Shown here one piece after another: positions 29,158 through 35,341 of a stretch of DNA of 64,000 nt; position 1 is the first letter of the stretch, and each line of letters starts with the position of its first letter. This DNA comes from Bacteriovoracaceae bacterium. GTDB lineage: Bacteria; Bdellovibrionota; Bacteriovoracia; Bacteriovoracales; Bacteriovoracaceae. The position numbers and the translations under genes were made by a program. The notes beneath the pieces are model-generated. The model saw only the letters and a program-made list of their open reading frames with translations, did no database searches and was not told the origin of the DNA. Location of the stretch: assembly GCA_017858255.1 (NCBI GenBank), contig JAFMBV010000001.1, positions 62,001 to 126,000 on the forward strand. The letters are read 5' to 3'.

Positions 29158-30624
29158 ATGACCAAGTACAATCAGCCTGGGCCCATTGTCGCAATTAGTA
29201 CCGGTCTGGGTGAAAAGAGTGCTTTGGGAATCGTTCGAGTTAGCGGCTGCAAAGATCTTTCTTTTCTCAATCATATTACCAAAAAGCCGGTGAGCTTTTC
29301 TCCGGCTCCTCGTAAAGCCTATTTCTCAAGATTTTACGATTCTAAGAATGATACTCTGGACGAAGGTCTTTTTATCTTCTTTAAGGGTCCAGAGAGCTTT
29401 ACAGGTGAAGATACTGTTGAGTTCAATCTTCACGGTAACCCATTGATTTTAAATAACTTTTGTCAATATTTGGTAAGTGAATTTGGTTTTCGCCTTGCCG
29501 AACCAGGGGAGTTTTCTTTTCGGGCACTTCAAAATGAAAAGCTTAATCTAACTCAGATAGAGGGGCTTGATTTAATCCTCAATGCAAATTCCGGCTTTGG
29601 TCTTAAGGCCGGCACCGAGCTTCTTAATAACGATGTCTTCAAAAGTTATAAAGAGCTAAAGAGTTTATTCTTAGAAATCAAAATGTCGCTCGAAATCTTA
29701 ATTGATTTTTCAGAGGACGTTGGCGAAGAAGAAATCTTTAAAAAACTTGATGGTGTTCATGGGCGTTTTTCAAAATTGATTAACAAGCTTTTTAATCGCA
29801 CCCAAGGAAACATAGAGCATCTTCTTTCTCCTTCAGTATCTCTTTTTGGTGCAACCAATGCTGGTAAGAGTACCTTCTTTAATATGCTCCTAGGCGACAA
29901 TAGGGCAATTGTGAGCAATATCCACGGCACTACAAGGGATTACATTTCTGAGTTTATTTACTTAAATGGAACCTCCTTCAAGCTTATTGATACCGCAGGG
30001 TTAAGAGTAACCCACGAAGAGGTTGAAACACTTGGAATAGAGAGAACTTATAAAATTAACGAAGAAAGCTTCTTTAAAATTTTCGTTATTAATCCTTTTG
30101 ATGATTTGGTTGATTATGAGGGGCTTTTATTTGATGCCATTGTATTCACGCATGCCGATCTTCCTGGTGTTGATAAGAAAATTCAGGAAATTTCAAAAAC
30201 TCTCAGGGGAGAATATTATTTATCTTCAGGCCCCAAAAGTGGTCCTATGGGGGCAGAAAATAGTGGTCCTATAGGACCAAAAAAGAATGGTCCTATGGGG
30301 GCAACTTTTAGTGGTTCTATAGGGGCAGCTTTTAAATTTGATGGTCCTATAGGACCAGAGACATCTCTTGAGAATAAAATATTCGAGAAATATCAACAAC
30401 TTACGTCTACCAATCCAATTGCTATTTCTCGCCACAGGGATGTAATTACAGATATTTATGAGACTTTTAACGAATATTTAAGTACTTATGGGGAGACTAG
30501 GGATTGTGCGATTCTTAGCTCTTATGCAAATAGACTAGGTGCATCACTAGATGAGCTCATTGGCGTTGTATCACCTCAAGAGGTTCTGGATTCGATCTTT
30601 AGTAATTTCTGCATAGGAAAGTAG
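29158..30624 (+). CDS. mnmE: tRNA modification GTPase MnmE with a repeat insertion
   Basis: With MnmG it makes the 5-aminomethyluridine-type modification at tRNA wobble U34. The N-terminal tetrahydrofolate-binding domain is followed by helical segments and an embedded G domain: G1 GATNAGKST (231-239), G2 GTTRD, G3 DTAG (278-281). The C-terminal CIGK motif (Cys485) is intact. Two oddities are seen. The G4 motif NKxD is replaced by THAD (331-334). An insertion at about residues 361-402, made of Gly-Pro octapeptide repeats, lies near the G5 position. The protein is 488 residues against a usual ~455, which the insertion accounts for. Confidence 0.94.
   Translation: MTKYNQPGPIVAISTGLGEKSALGIVRVSGCKDLSFLNHITKKPVSFSPAPRKAYFSRFYDSKNDTLDEGLFIFFKGPESFTGEDTVEFNLHGNPLILNNFCQYLVSEFGFRLAEPGEFSFRALQNEKLNLTQIEGLDLILNANSGFGLKAGTELLNNDVFKSYKELKSLFLEIKMSLEILIDFSEDVGEEEIFKKLDGVHGRFSKLINKLFNRTQGNIEHLLSPSVSLFGATNAGKSTFFNMLLGDNRAIVSNIHGTTRDYISEFIYLNGTSFKLIDTAGLRVTHEEVETLGIERTYKINEESFFKIFVINPFDDLVDYEGLLFDAIVFTHADLPGVDKKIQEISKTLRGEYYLSSGPKSGPMGAENSGPIGPKKNGPMGATFSGSIGAAFKFDGPIGPETSLENKIFEKYQQLTSTNPIAISRHRDVITDIYETFNEYLSTYGETRDCAILSSYANRLGASLDELIGVVSPQEVLDSIFSNFCIGK
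30238..30363 (+). repeat. 24-bp tandem repeat array with palindromic core inside mnmE
   Basis: Five units start at 30238, 30262, 30286, 30310 and 30340 (24-bp units, the fourth 30 bp). The core GGTCCTATRGGRSC appears at 30241-30254, 30265-30278, 30289-30302, 30313-30326 and 30343-30356. The second and fifth copies extend to the perfect 16-bp palindrome TGGTCCTATAGGACCA (30264-30279, 30342-30357). Each unit encodes x-G-P-M/I-G-A/P-x-x. Conservation runs through wobble positions, which points to recent duplication or DNA-level function. Confidence 0.93.
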
Positions 30625-30677: not shown

Positions 30678-32543
30678 ATGTTCTACGTGGAACAGTTTCA
30701 AAATAAATTCGATGTTTTAATTATGGGTGGTGGTCATGCTGGACTCGAGGCTGCTTGGTCTGCATATCAGTTTGGTCTTCGCGTTGGTATTGTGTCGCTC
30801 CCTGGTGTTGGTCTTGGTTCGGCACCATGTAATCCGGCAGTTGGTGGCGTAGGCAAGGGCCAGGTTGTAAGAGAAATAGATGCTCTTGGTGGAGTAATGG
30901 GGATTCTTGCTGACAAGGCTGGAATTCAATATAGAGTTCTAAATGAAAGCAAGGGTTATGCAGTTCAGTCGACTCGTATCCAAATCGATAAAGAAAAATA
31001 TAGTAAATACGCCGAAGATCTAATCTCCGAAACCGAAATCATCGTTGTTCGAGATAGGATTAACAAAGTTCTTCCAAAGAGTGGTGAATACTTCACGCTG
31101 GAAGGCGATGCTGGTTCTTATCGCTCAAAAAAACTAATTGTTACTACGGGTACATTCTTGGCAGGCATGCTTCATACTGGTGCCGAGATTTCAACCGGTG
31201 GTAGGGTAGGAAAACCATCTTCAAATAGCATTGAAGACCTGTTTAGCAAGGTAAAAACTCTCAAAAAACGCTTTAAGACTGGAACGCCTCCAAGAATTAA
31301 GAGGTCCTCAATCGATTTTAGTAAAATGGAACCTCAGCCAAGTGATTATGGAGCGGTAAACTTTCACTGGGCCAATGATAGCTACTACAGAAAGCAACCC
31401 CAGGTTGATTGTTACCTTACAAGAACCAATGACAAAGCACTTGAAATAATCAGAGAAAACAAAGAGAAGAGCCCAATATTTAATGGTCAAATTAAAGGTA
31501 TCGGGCCGAGGTACTGTCCCAGCATCGAGGACAAGGCTTTTCGCTACCTAGATAGGAATGTTCATCATGTATTTGTAGAGCCTGAGGGCCTAGATATTGA
31601 TACTTTTTATCCGAATGGTATATCGACATCACTACCAAAGGAAGTACAGCTAGAGTTCTTGAGGAAGATACCTGGATTGGAAGCAGCGGAAATTGCCGTT
31701 TACGGGTATGCTGTTGAGTACGATGTGGTAAACACACTTGATCTCAAGAGAACAATGGAACATAAGGATGTAGAAGGGCTATATTTTGCCGGCCAGGTGT
31801 GTGGTACTTCCGGTTATGAGGAAGCCGCTGGACAAGGGCTTATGGCGGGTTTAAACGCTTCTTTAGCGACGCTGGGTAAAGACCCAATCATACTAAATAG
31901 AAATGAAAGCTATATTGGTGTTATGCTTGAAGATTTAGTTACCTATGAAAGAGATGAGCCTTATAGGCTATTTACCGCAAGGTCTGAGAATAGGTTATTT
32001 ATTCGTGAAGATAATTCTACCTTTAGAATGGCAAAGTATCGAAAAAGTCTAGGACTGCATCAGTCTATAGACAAATACAATGAAGACTTCTTGGTAAAGT
32101 TCAGTATTTTAGAGAGGGCGTGCGATGAAATCAGTTACATGCCAACTAAAGAGAACGTGGAGTTGTTCAGCAGTAATTCCTGGGGTGGTCTGAAGGAAAA
32201 GATCACATTGTCTGAAGTTCTTCAGAGAAGTAATGTGGATCCAGTTTCGGCACTCAAGAAGGTTTTAAATATATCAGGCCTAAGTTTTGATTCAAGAATT
32301 GTTAGGGCCGTTGCGGTTTCTATAAAATACCGTGGATATATTGTTAGAGAAGAGATTGAGAATAGAAACCTTAGAAAACTCGAAGACAAGAAATTGGATT
32401 GGCGCAACCTTCTAACTAGAAAAAACCTAAGTTTTGAATGCAAGCAAAGGATTGAAAAAATAAAACCTGAAACTTTTGGGCAATTAAAAAGAATAGAAGG
32501 CATAAGGCCTGCAACTCTTGCCTTCATCGCTTCAGGTCTATAA
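30678..32543 (+). CDS. mnmG: tRNA uridine-5-carboxymethylaminomethyl modification enzyme MnmG
   Basis: This FAD-dependent partner of MnmE has the dinucleotide-binding MGGGHAGLEAA near residue 15, the family block CNPAVGGVGKGQ, and GQVCGTSGYEEAAGQGL. Length (621) and C-terminal helical domain (ending near RPATLAFIA) are normal. The initiator codon is embedded in a parS-like sequence, so its first residues (MFYVEQF) are constrained by that site. rsmG begins immediately at the next base. Confidence 0.96.
   Translation: MFYVEQFQNKFDVLIMGGGHAGLEAAWSAYQFGLRVGIVSLPGVGLGSAPCNPAVGGVGKGQVVREIDALGGVMGILADKAGIQYRVLNESKGYAVQSTRIQIDKEKYSKYAEDLISETEIIVVRDRINKVLPKSGEYFTLEGDAGSYRSKKLIVTTGTFLAGMLHTGAEISTGGRVGKPSSNSIEDLFSKVKTLKKRFKTGTPPRIKRSSIDFSKMEPQPSDYGAVNFHWANDSYYRKQPQVDCYLTRTNDKALEIIRENKEKSPIFNGQIKGIGPRYCPSIEDKAFRYLDRNVHHVFVEPEGLDIDTFYPNGISTSLPKEVQLEFLRKIPGLEAAEIAVYGYAVEYDVVNTLDLKRTMEHKDVEGLYFAGQVCGTSGYEEAAGQGLMAGLNASLATLGKDPIILNRNESYIGVMLEDLVTYERDEPYRLFTARSENRLFIREDNSTFRMAKYRKSLGLHQSIDKYNEDFLVKFSILERACDEISYMPTKENVELFSSNSWGGLKEKITLSEVLQRSNVDPVSALKKVLNISGLSFDSRIVRAVAVSIKYRGYIVREEIENRNLRKLEDKKLDWRNLLTRKNLSFECKQRIEKIKPETFGQLKRIEGIRPATLAFIASGL
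30679..30694. promoter_or_regulatory. parS-like centromere site overlapping the mnmG start
   Basis: TGTTCTACGTGGAACA differs at one or two arm positions from the perfect palindrome found at 33119 and from the bacterial parS consensus TGTTNCACGTGAAACA. It overlaps the mnmG start codon (30678-30680). ParB is encoded 3.4 kb downstream. Confidence 0.82.
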
Positions 32544-33170
32544 ATGAGAGATTTTTCCGATAAACTCCTCGATCTACTTAATAATAAATACGGTTCATTA
32601 AATTTAACAAGAATTAATGAAGCCGAGGAATTCTTCCAGAAACAGGTTCTGGACTCTATGTTACCCTGTGATTTGTTCGAGTCTTATTCAGCAAATATTG
32701 AAAAGGGTCTTCATCTCGATATTGGCTTTGGTGGTGGCTTTCCACTTTTACCTCTGGCCAATAGGTTTGCTGAAACTAAATTTTTAGGATTTGAGGCCAG
32801 AAGAAAAAAAGCCGATGCGGTAAGAGATATCGCTGAAGATCTAGCTCTCGTTAATATTAAAACCTTTCACCATAGAATTGAAGACATCTTGATTGATAGG
32901 CCTTGTAGTATTTCATTCAAGGCAGTAGGTAAGATATCAGATTATCTAAAAAAAATTAATTCCAACCATAAGGTCACCGTTTACTTCTATAAAGGTCCAA
33001 ATGTTAAAGAGTTGGAATCGGTGCCGGAAAAGATAGAAAGTTTTAGAAAAATTTTAGATGAGGAGTACGAACTCCCAGGCACTAACGGAAGGTCTTTCAT
33101 TGCATATGAGGGGCGATCTGTTCCACGTGGAACAAAGAAAGCGCTTGTCAAACTATCCGAACTTATTTAA
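32544..33170 (+). CDS. rsmG: 16S rRNA (guanine-527-N7) methyltransferase RsmG
   Basis: This SAM-dependent methyltransferase acts on 16S rRNA. Family features are NLTRI near residue 19, the SAM-binding HLDIGFGGGFPLLPLA, and GFEARRKKADAV where most homologues have a Ser/Asp-containing motif. The 208-residue length is usual. Codons near the 3' end (SVPRGT) overlap a perfect parS-like palindrome. It starts directly after mnmG. Confidence 0.92.
   Translation: MRDFSDKLLDLLNNKYGSLNLTRINEAEEFFQKQVLDSMLPCDLFESYSANIEKGLHLDIGFGGGFPLLPLANRFAETKFLGFEARRKKADAVRDIAEDLALVNIKTFHHRIEDILIDRPCSISFKAVGKISDYLKKINSNHKVTVYFYKGPNVKELESVPEKIESFRKILDEEYELPGTNGRSFIAYEGRSVPRGTKKALVKLSELI
33119..33134. promoter_or_regulatory. 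parS-like centromere site in the 3' end of rsmG
   Basis: TGTTCCACGTGGAACA is a perfect 16-bp palindrome matching the parS core. It is 90 bases ahead of parA, a common location for parS. Confidence 0.92.
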
Positions 33171-33207: not shown

Positions 33208-34053
33208 ATGACTAAAATTATTGCTTTAGCCAATCAAAAGGGCGGGGTTGGTAAGACAACAACGGCCATTAATCTTGCGGCGTGTCTAGCAGTGGCTGAG
33301 AAAAAAACTCTACTAATAGACCTAGATCCTCAAGGGAATGCCAGTGTTGGTGCTGGTTTAAACAAAGAGGACTTTGCAGATAGTAATATCTATCATGCAA
33401 TAATCGGAAAAAAGTCTATAAAGGACTGCATCTATCCTACTGAGCTCCCACATTTTGATGTGTGCCCAGCAGATCAAAATCTAATTGGCGCAGAGATTGA
33501 GTTAGTTAGCGAGTTTGCTCGTGAACATAAGCTAAAAGCTGCAATTGAACCTATTATAAAGGAATACGACTATATTTTGGTAGATTGCTTACCAAGTCTG
33601 AATGTATTGGCCGTAAACGCACTTACAGCATGTACGGGTGTAATAGTTCCATTACAAACTGAATATTATGCAATGGAAGGCTTGGCCCAGCTTTTAAATA
33701 CCATAAGGCTTGTTAGGTCTTCACTTAATCCGACATTGGCTTTAGAGGGCATTCTCTTAACGATGTTTGATTCTAGAACTTCTTTGCATAAGCAAGTGTC
33801 TGCAGAAGTGAAAACGCACTTTGGTGATAAGGTTTTTGAAACAATCATTCCAAGAAACGTAAAAATATCGGAATGCCCATCCTTTGGTAAACCAATAATT
33901 CTTTATGATATCGAATCTAAGGGAAGCAAGGCTTACCTTTCATTAGCGAAGGAAATGATTTTAAGGGAGAGAATGGAAACTCCAGAAAATCAGCCAGAGT
34001 TAAATTTTACGATTCCAGAAATACCAAAAGACCACAGAGATCAATTACAGTAA
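33208..34053 (+). CDS. parA: Chromosome partitioning ATPase ParA
   Basis: This deviant Walker ATPase binds nucleoid DNA and moves ParB-parS complexes. The Walker A box KGGVGKTTTAINLA is at residues ~11-24; LLIDLDPQGNAS and DYILVDCLPSLN are the Walker A' and B regions. The length of 281 residues, without an N-terminal HTH, is the chromosomal (Soj) type. CGGAG lies ahead of the ATG. parB follows after 13 bases. Confidence 0.96.
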   Translation: MTKIIALANQKGGVGKTTTAINLAACLAVAEKKTLLIDLDPQGNASVGAGLNKEDFADSNIYHAIIGKKSIKDCIYPTELPHFDVCPADQNLIGAEIELVSEFAREHKLKAAIEPIIKEYDYILVDCLPSLNVLAVNALTACTGVIVPLQTEYYAMEGLAQLLNTIRLVRSSLNPTLALEGILLTMFDSRTSLHKQVSAEVKTHFGDKVFETIIPRNVKISECPSFGKPIILYDIESKGSKAYLSLAKEMILRERMETPENQPELNFTIPEIPKDHRDQLQ

Positions 34054-34066
34054 TCAGGATTAGAAA

Positions 34067-34966
34067 ATGGCGAAGAAAGTAGCATTAGGAAAAGGTATAG
34101 CATCATTAATTCAGGACACTCCTAACGAGATACTTAAGGCATCTTTGAAGGACCTGGGTGGAACAAAGGCCAGTGAAGAGAGTCTTGGAGAAAACCCGGC
34201 GTTAGTTGCTATTAGTGAAATTAAGGCAAACCCAAATCAACCAAGAAAAATATTCAAAGAAAAAGAATTAAAAGAGCTTTCGGATTCAATAAAAGAAAAT
34301 GGAGTAATTCAGCCCTTGGTTGTTCTTAAAGCAGAGAAGGGTTTTGAGTTAATCGCAGGTGAGAGAAGGTTGAGAGCTGCGAAAATGGCAGGTCTTGATA
34401 GGGTTCCCGTTGTAATTAAAAAAGTTACCGATAGAGAGAGAATGGTTATCTCTATCATTGAAAATGTTCAAAGAAGCGATTTAAACTGCGTAGAAGAAGC
34501 CTTGGCATATTACCAATTAATGAATGAGTTTGAGCTAACTCAAGAAGAGGTTGGTAAAAGATTAGGAAAAGAAAGATCAACCATTGCTAACTTTATAAGA
34601 ATCTTAAAGCTGCCCAGAGATGTGATCGAATTATTGCAAAAAGAATTCTTAAGTTTTGGCCATGCAAAGGTTTTAGCGGCAGAGAAAGAGCGTGAGCGTT
34701 GTATAAGGCTGGCGAACCAAGCGGTTACTGAAAACATGTCAGTAAGAGAGCTTGAAAAACTACTTAAGAAGAGAGAGTTGGGACTCAAAAAGCCTCAAGA
34801 GAAATATTTTGATGCAAAGTTGGACCAATTTAAGCAAAAGCTAGAGCAGAAGACTGGATATCACTTCGATTTAAAGTCAAAAAAAGCAGGTAAGGGTGAA
34901 TTTGTGATAAAATTCACAAATGAAGCGGAATTCAACGATATATATGAATATCTGTTAAAACGTTAA
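34067..34966 (+). CDS. parB: Chromosome partitioning protein ParB
   Basis: This is a CTP-dependent parS-binding clamp. The N-terminal CTPase domain includes NPNQPRKIF, GERRLRAAKMAG and ENVQRSDLN. The central HTH region is LTQEEVGKRLGKERSTIANF, and a C-terminal dimerisation segment ends the protein. Length (299) fits chromosomal ParB/Spo0J. A 16-bp palindrome begins at the base after its stop codon. Confidence 0.96.
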   Translation: MAKKVALGKGIASLIQDTPNEILKASLKDLGGTKASEESLGENPALVAISEIKANPNQPRKIFKEKELKELSDSIKENGVIQPLVVLKAEKGFELIAGERRLRAAKMAGLDRVPVVIKKVTDRERMVISIIENVQRSDLNCVEEALAYYQLMNEFELTQEEVGKRLGKERSTIANFIRILKLPRDVIELLQKEFLSFGHAKVLAAEKERERCIRLANQAVTENMSVRELEKLLKKRELGLKKPQEKYFDAKLDQFKQKLEQKTGYHFDLKSKKAGKGEFVIKFTNEAEFNDIYEYLLKR

Positions 34967-34982
34967 TGGTCCTATAGGACCA
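34967..34982. repeat. Third exact copy of the 16-bp palindrome TGGTCCTATAGGACCA
   Basis: The palindrome begins directly after the parB TAA (34964-34966). It is identical to the two perfect copies in mnmE. There is no T-run after it, so it is not a standard terminator. Confidence 0.93.
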
Positions 34983-35005: not shown

Positions 35006-35341
35006 GTGAGGCATAAGGGTGAAATATCGGCCATCATCGAAGAAGGTTGTAAATTTGAGGGTAACTTAAGTTTTAACGGAGTTGCCAGAATTGCCGGTAT
35101 CGTAAACGGTTCTGTGTTCTCAAACGACACAGTAATTGTGTCTGAGGGTGCTGTCGTTAATGCAGATATAAATGCCAATGTTATTTTAATATCTGGAACA
35201 GTGAAAGGTAACATTAAAGCGAGTAGCAGGGTTGAGATTATAAAGCCTGCCAGATTTGAAGGAACTATTACCACACCGAGTCTAATCGTAGAGGAAGGGG
35301 TGATTTTTCACGGAACAACAAAAATGCGTGAAAAAAGGTAA
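35006..35341 (+). CDS. Bactofilin
   Basis: This 111-residue cytoskeletal beta-helix protein has repeating segments such as CKFEGNLSFNGVARIAGIVNG, SVFSNDTVIVSEGAVVNADI and ISGTVKGNIKASSRVEI, the bactofilin (formerly DUF583) pattern. GTG 35006 is chosen because AAGGA lies 7 bases ahead. It sits 39 bases after parB; in Myxococcus, bactofilins are encoded beside parAB and scaffold the segregation machinery, so a similar role is likely. Confidence 0.9.
   Translation: MRHKGEISAIIEEGCKFEGNLSFNGVARIAGIVNGSVFSNDTVIVSEGAVVNADINANVILISGTVKGNIKASSRVEIIKPARFEGTITTPSLIVEEGVIFHGTTKMREKR

Follow-up and report, generated by a model that had tools for sequence, protein, structure and literature searches.

A 16-bp palindrome, TGGTCCTATAGGACCA, is a real, strongly selected DNA element of the chromosome origin region that is found family-wide in the Bacteriovoracaceae, a family of often predatory bacteria. 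The palindrome is probably a conserved protein-binding site of a second centromere-like class ('parS2'), and the likeliest binder would be ParB2, a Noc-like ParB protein encoded together with its own ParA.

Palindrome copies in the mnmE-parB locus

The window analysed is a 64,000-nt stretch of the Bacteriovoracaceae contig JAFMBV010000001.1, and all the window coordinates refer to this stretch (Table 1). Scanning it revealed three exact copies of the palindrome, two inside mnmE and one which, as the initial annotation had described, directly follows parB, abutting its stop codon (TAA, 34964-34966). Three further mnmE copies, overlooked in that annotation, carry three mismatches each and have the right half TRGGGGCA; the mnmE array was therefore corrected to five units, with start-to-start steps of 24, 24, 24 and 30 bp. 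Allowing up to three mismatches, the window contains six matches compared to 0.16 expected (none of 100 shuffles gave six), which rules out a chance origin and bears out the earlier claim of significance. The order palindrome(s)-parS-parS-parA-parB-palindrome was also correctly reported, and both parS-like sites were read directly.

Table 1 Features of the mnmE-parB locus in the window.
Feature	Position	Strand	Description
mnmE (tRNA-modification GTPase)	29158..30624	+	TrmE_N, MMR_HSR1 and MnmE_helical domains
mnmE array site 1	30240..30255	+	TGGTCCTATGGGGGCA; right half degenerate; encodes GPMGA; half-site variant also in relatives
mnmE array site 2	30264..30279	+	Exact palindrome; encodes GPIGP
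mnmE array site 3	30288..30303	+	Right half degenerate
mnmE array site 4	30312..30327	+	TGGTTCTATAGGGGCA
mnmE array site 5	30342..30357	+	Exact palindrome
parS-like site, mnmG start	30679..30694	+	TGTTCTACGTGGAACA; read directly; counterpart in most relatives surveyed
parS-like site, near rsmG 3' end	33119..33134	+	TGTTCCACGTGGAACA; read directly; kept in most relatives
parA (chromosomal)	33208..34053	+	AAA_31 domain
parB (chromosomal ParB1)	34067..34966	+	Domain match; R173- and G201-equivalent parS-type residues
post-parB site	34967..34982	+	Exact palindrome; parB-bactofilin gap
bactofilin gene	35006..35341	+	Domain match; directly downstream of the post-parB site

The whole 4.08-Mb genome contains the exact 16-mer at only these three places, and every match outside the mnmE-parB locus, which lies close to dnaA, carries at least two mismatches. 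The same restriction was observed in relatives: all nine sites of G008 (3.44 Mb in two contigs) fall within 12.6 kb, between 3,419,873 and 3,432,515 of the 3.436-Mb chromosome contig, at its mnmE-parB end; in the other good assemblies the sites are likewise at the origin, with an occasional lone degenerate match elsewhere. Highly iterated palindromes and REP elements are also short repeated palindromes, but they occur genome-wide, whereas the copies counted over this genome and its relatives are not scattered but confined to a short origin-proximal stretch of a few kb. A highly iterated palindrome, one of the suggestions of the initial annotation, is consequently ruled out, as is a REP element.

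Conservation across the Bacteriovoracaceae

The 14-bp core was present in 28 genomes among 98 relatives, all of them Bacteriovoracaceae (reversed control: 0), and the Bacteriovoracaceae genomes without the exact core have variant copies at the same places. A scan of the GTDB genomes gave matches mostly in Bacteriovoracaceae/Halobacteriovorax contigs; gene mapping located the sites within mnmE, downstream of parB or at other points of the dnaA-atp region. A tabulation of 240 sites by half-site is dominated by TGGTCCTATAGGACCA and variants one step away from it; the consensus is TGGTYCTATAGRACCA, with TGCCCC as an alternative half-site. This consensus was found in 116 of 129 Bacteriovoracaceae genomes compared to one of 240 from the rest of the phylum, and a looser pattern in 58/60 compared to 5/38 (single, chance-like sites in the latter), the reversed-pattern control being nearly always 0. 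The palindrome has been retained through more than 40 genera. Most of the genomes searched are draft MAGs. In three Bacteriovoracaceae genomes without an origin array (G048, G055, G036), mnmE was not found in the assembly, and another (G010) has two weak copies only.

Two groups of exact copies elsewhere are unrelated to this system. Those of five Caulobacter species all lie in one conserved stretch, and those of Pseudonocardia spinosispora form the core of a species-specific hairpin of ~44-50 bp (CCGTGAGTGGCGAG TGGTCCTATAGGACCA CTCGCCACTCACGG), terminator- or REP-like and present at many genome places (loci L044, L058, L064, L071 and L072, among others).

The mnmE array is the constant feature of the Bacteriovoracaceae loci. 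Conservation at the parB 3' end, the lack of which the initial annotation had named as refuting, extends to about half of the loci: the parB-bactofilin gap carries a site in 15 of 33, and 18/33 lack it; the site is missing where the gap is shorter than ~40 bp. In some genomes, copies occur in the interval that separates the two parS sites, either within mnmG or in the rsmG-parA gap, and several have copies beyond atpC. A further single copy was located immediately after the last atp gene of several relatives (L042:1500, L045:1247, L069:3216, L076:946, L088:101), in some of them with an adjacent terminator-like hairpin, and with a long uncharacterised gene downstream.

These distributions bear on the proposal of the initial annotation that the palindromes limit ParB spreading; in such a reading, a protein bound to them would act as a roadblock to ParB1 sliding from parS. 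The parS sites and parAB do lie between the mnmE array and the post-parB site, in the window as in the other loci having a post-parB site. However, this bracket is not general: more than half of the loci have no post-parB site, several genomes have sites inside the bracket or beyond atpC, and multi-site arrays restricted to the mnmE side are common among the relatives. A boundary function is therefore improbable.

Selection on the DNA sequence

The mnmE array sits in frame and encodes a Gly-Pro-rich insert that follows the conserved portion of the G domain; a solved MnmE structure aligns up to residue 319 and resumes at ~419, with the array falling in between. The MnmE proteins of the Bacteriovoracaceae have a variable Gly-Pro-rich insert (GPIGP-type) at this point, separating the G domain from the C-terminal part (30230-30360 in the window). 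Practically all of the tabulated mnmE copies (189/191) share one frame, reading mostly G[PS][IM][GE][PA], and the codons of this peptide are nearly invariant: the first Gly codon is GGT in 175/176 (compared to 33% in the accompanying mnmG genes), the Ile codon is ATA in 146/151 (25% background), the fourth-position Gly codon is GGA or GGG in 127/127, and the fifth-position Pro codon is CCA or CCG in 152/152. These codons were counted by scanning for the peptide and not for the DNA, which avoids selection bias; the copies of one array are not independent, and this relatedness inflates the p-values. Amino acid changes from P to S and from G to E are common, and the Y/R wobble of the half-site is preserved through them. 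The copies in mnmG occupy another frame (RSYRT by direct translation), and those behind parB are intergenic, sometimes in arrays of 3-5 (steps of 23, 24, 27, 31, 32 and 34 bp). Synonymous positions frozen while the amino acids vary, another frame in mnmG and intergenic copies behind parB all indicate that selection acts on the DNA; the Gly-Pro-rich insert of MnmE arises as a by-product of this array.

The steps within mnmE (24, 27, 30, 33 and 36 bp) keep the reading frame but not the helical phase, as would suit sites that act independently better than a single phased complex. The array is tandem, in frame and variable in number, and so it probably grows by slippage or unequal exchange, as would be expected of a selfish or neutral repeat without any binding function, whether HIP/REP-like or a slippage-driven Gly-Pro repeat of MnmE. 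The probability of such a repeat is nevertheless negligible, given that the copies are not dispersed over the genome, that silent positions are fixed, that the site recurs in different genes and frames as well as between genes, and that it has been maintained across so many genera.

Relationship with parS and NBS

The palindrome has the format of the parS and NBS sites: 16 bp, a perfect or near-perfect palindrome, a conserved sequence, and few copies at defined chromosome positions, origin-proximal as in the case of parS. It does not match the canonical parS (TGTTYCACGTGRAACA), differing at positions 3, 7 and 8 and their mirror; both share T1, G2, T4, Y5 and C6 plus mirror, including the C/T wobble at position 5, and half-site agreement with the local parS is 5/8 bases (chance ~0.03). 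Since NBS departs from parS at two positions per half-site, the palindrome looks like a further member of the same grammar, although this likeness is only suggestive. The Noc-NBS system of Bacillus likewise combines a ParB paralogue with a 16-bp palindrome distinguished from parS by a small number of symmetric changes (PMC7383237, PMC8429893). The changes are at positions 2 and 7 in NBS, compared to 3, 7 and 8 here; NBS sites are described as scattered around the chromosome (PMC4331003), whereas the palindromes are confined to the origin region and partly arranged in arrays inside a gene.

The common format, the common locus and the shared half-site bases would also fit low-affinity or special-purpose sites of ParB1 itself. 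Nonetheless, the alignment indicates that ParB1 retains the parS-specifying residues (R173- and G201-equivalents, N178 and the GK pair), whose roles are taken from PMC7383237, and each of the 20 loci surveyed contains at least one near-consensus parS site; in most of these loci, such sites lie at the mnmE-mnmG junction and at the rsmG end. The palindrome, distinct at three half-site positions, was not seen to grade into parS. Accordingly, we consider a ParB1 site very improbable.

The ordinary ParABS of these loci resembles other chromosomal systems, such as that of Bdellovibrio bacteriovorus, with its origin-proximal 16-bp palindromes and a ParA-ParB pair. In B. bacteriovorus, a single ParABS is described, comprising two parS sites, and its parB is followed by a bactofilin gene (PMC10547168), an arrangement also found here; the neighbours of the two extra parA genes of this species have no strong homology to ParB (PMC7186360). 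The Bacteriovoracaceae differ in the sequence of the additional site and in that a second ParA-ParB pair would act at the same origin. Bactofilins are described as organising ParABS in Myxococcus (PMC5703909).

ParA2-ParB2, the candidate binder

A search with PF02195 detected a second ParB_N protein of ~300 aa in most Bacteriovoracaceae genomes. Its gene, parB2, directly follows its own parA2 in 20 of 20 loci read; the pair is recorded outside the window, at G000:C169:39980-40867 (L138:2481-3371). A 20-member ParB2 profile matched 56/60 Bacteriovoracaceae genomes compared to 0/38 outgroup genomes; overall, ParB2 was found in 115 of 125 Bacteriovoracaceae genomes and in 72 of the 73 of high quality. 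The exception among the latter (G032) might have been a counterexample, carrying sites without ParB2, but its contig ends inside parA2. In the two genomes where the distance was readable, ParB2 is ~0.37 Mb (G008) and ~0.4 Mb (G020) from the site cluster.

All the 20 ParB2 members have the ParB_N domain, and their alignment contains the nucleotide-binding motifs GERR[FY]RA and ENxxRE. The nearest solved structure, by sequence and by fold, is Noc: Foldseek comparison of the ParB2 model with known structures gave Noc (5e-12), then ParB and KorB, the predicted fold being that of ParB/Noc including the HTH, and the C-terminus, without a Pfam match to ParB_C, being predicted as a helical stretch (model pLDDT 75, pTM 0.47). 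The N-termini are basic (MAKxFAPRVSKKxRK). Of the DNA-contact positions named in PMC7383237, most differ between the recognition helix of ParB2 and parS-type ParBs. With respect to the parS-/NBS-type contacts, the HTH changes are Q162 to E, K171 to I (I in 19 members, V in one), R173 to K, N178 to R, G201 to Y and R204 to L, the alignment at 201-204 being less certain. The helix SK[ST]EVHR is kept in 20/20 members, from 20 genera. This recognition surface, altered and yet constant, fits a constant site other than parS.

A third, divergent ParB_N protein (~330 aa) is encoded in about half of the Bacteriovoracaceae genomes (G000:C146:8540-8731 and equivalents). It was rejected as the binder because of its patchy distribution and its absence from near-complete genomes that carry sites.

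ParB2 is also related to plasmid-type ParBs outside the Bacteriovoracaceae, with up to 36% identity among the matches listed; relatives on plasmids and viral contigs have ~26-42% identity over partial stretches. Plasmid ParABS systems share with ParA2-ParB2 a related ParB and a parA beside parB. ParA2-ParB2 differs in being chromosomal and family-wide, with its putative sites far from the genes. No such palindrome was found near the plasmid and viral relatives, nor beside the five plasmid parAB loci read.

Probable identity of the binding protein

The initial annotation had proposed a loading site for another chromosome-organising protein, and this is the suggestion that we favour, on the basis of the selection on the DNA, the restriction to the origin, the parS-like format and the Noc-like ParB2; the binding itself is what we infer. 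A ParB-type binder is the simplest fit to a parS-like 16-bp site in a family whose Noc-like ParB2 has an altered recognition helix. Several observations weaken the assignment to ParB2. Many parABS loci have their sites near the parAB genes, and no palindrome was found near parA2-parB2 in the 20 loci read; the resemblance to the parS half-site is modest; the plasmid and viral relatives of ParB2 have no site nearby; and the Pfam search detected no ParB_C dimerisation domain in ParB2. Moreover, the co-occurrence of the sites and ParB2 amounts to effectively one event, because both go back to one shared origin at the root of the Bacteriovoracaceae, and another family-wide DNA-binding protein could fit.

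The palindromes might thus bind a different family-specific protein, such as a membrane anchor, a replication-initiation regulator or an SMC-loading factor, with ParB2 acting elsewhere. All the evidence on the sites is independent of the identity of the binder, and both the distance from parA2-parB2 and the proximity of the locus to dnaA are consistent with such a protein. We consider it rather unlikely, in view of the parS-like format and the family-wide Noc-like ParB2, and the patchy third ParB-like protein cannot be a universal binder.

If ParB2 is the binder, a ParB2 dimer would nucleate on the 16-bp palindromes, bind CTP, close into a clamp and slide onto the flanking DNA, like ParB at parS and Noc at NBS. 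The arrays of independent sites would raise ParB2 loading at the origin, which ParB2 and ParA2 may serve to move, hold or mark in parallel with ParB1/parS; being encoded with its own ParA distinguishes ParB2 from Noc. We tentatively propose, as a possibility somewhat short of probable, that a single origin of one chromosome is served by two ParABS systems: ParB1 with parS, and Noc-like ParB2 with ParA2 on an interleaved second class of sites, the arrays of which would have evolved inside mnmE; that is, a double centromere in a single replicon.

Significance

The palindrome is unreported within the open-access literature searched: the 16-mer was not found there, and no description of such a site emerged from searches on ParB, palindromes or chromosome partitioning in Bacteriovorax or Halobacteriovorax. 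We also found no report in the open-access literature of one bacterial origin that combines two different ParB-type centromere sites with a pair of ParA motors, which is what binding by ParB2 would imply. The ParB/Noc family is a leading model for the divergence of DNA-binding specificity, and ParB2 with its palindrome would be a further natural pair of site and protein whose specificity code is different. The element is, furthermore, a DNA-site array kept within a housekeeping gene whose protein product pays for it with a variable insert, and it bears on chromosome segregation in the Bacteriovoracaceae.
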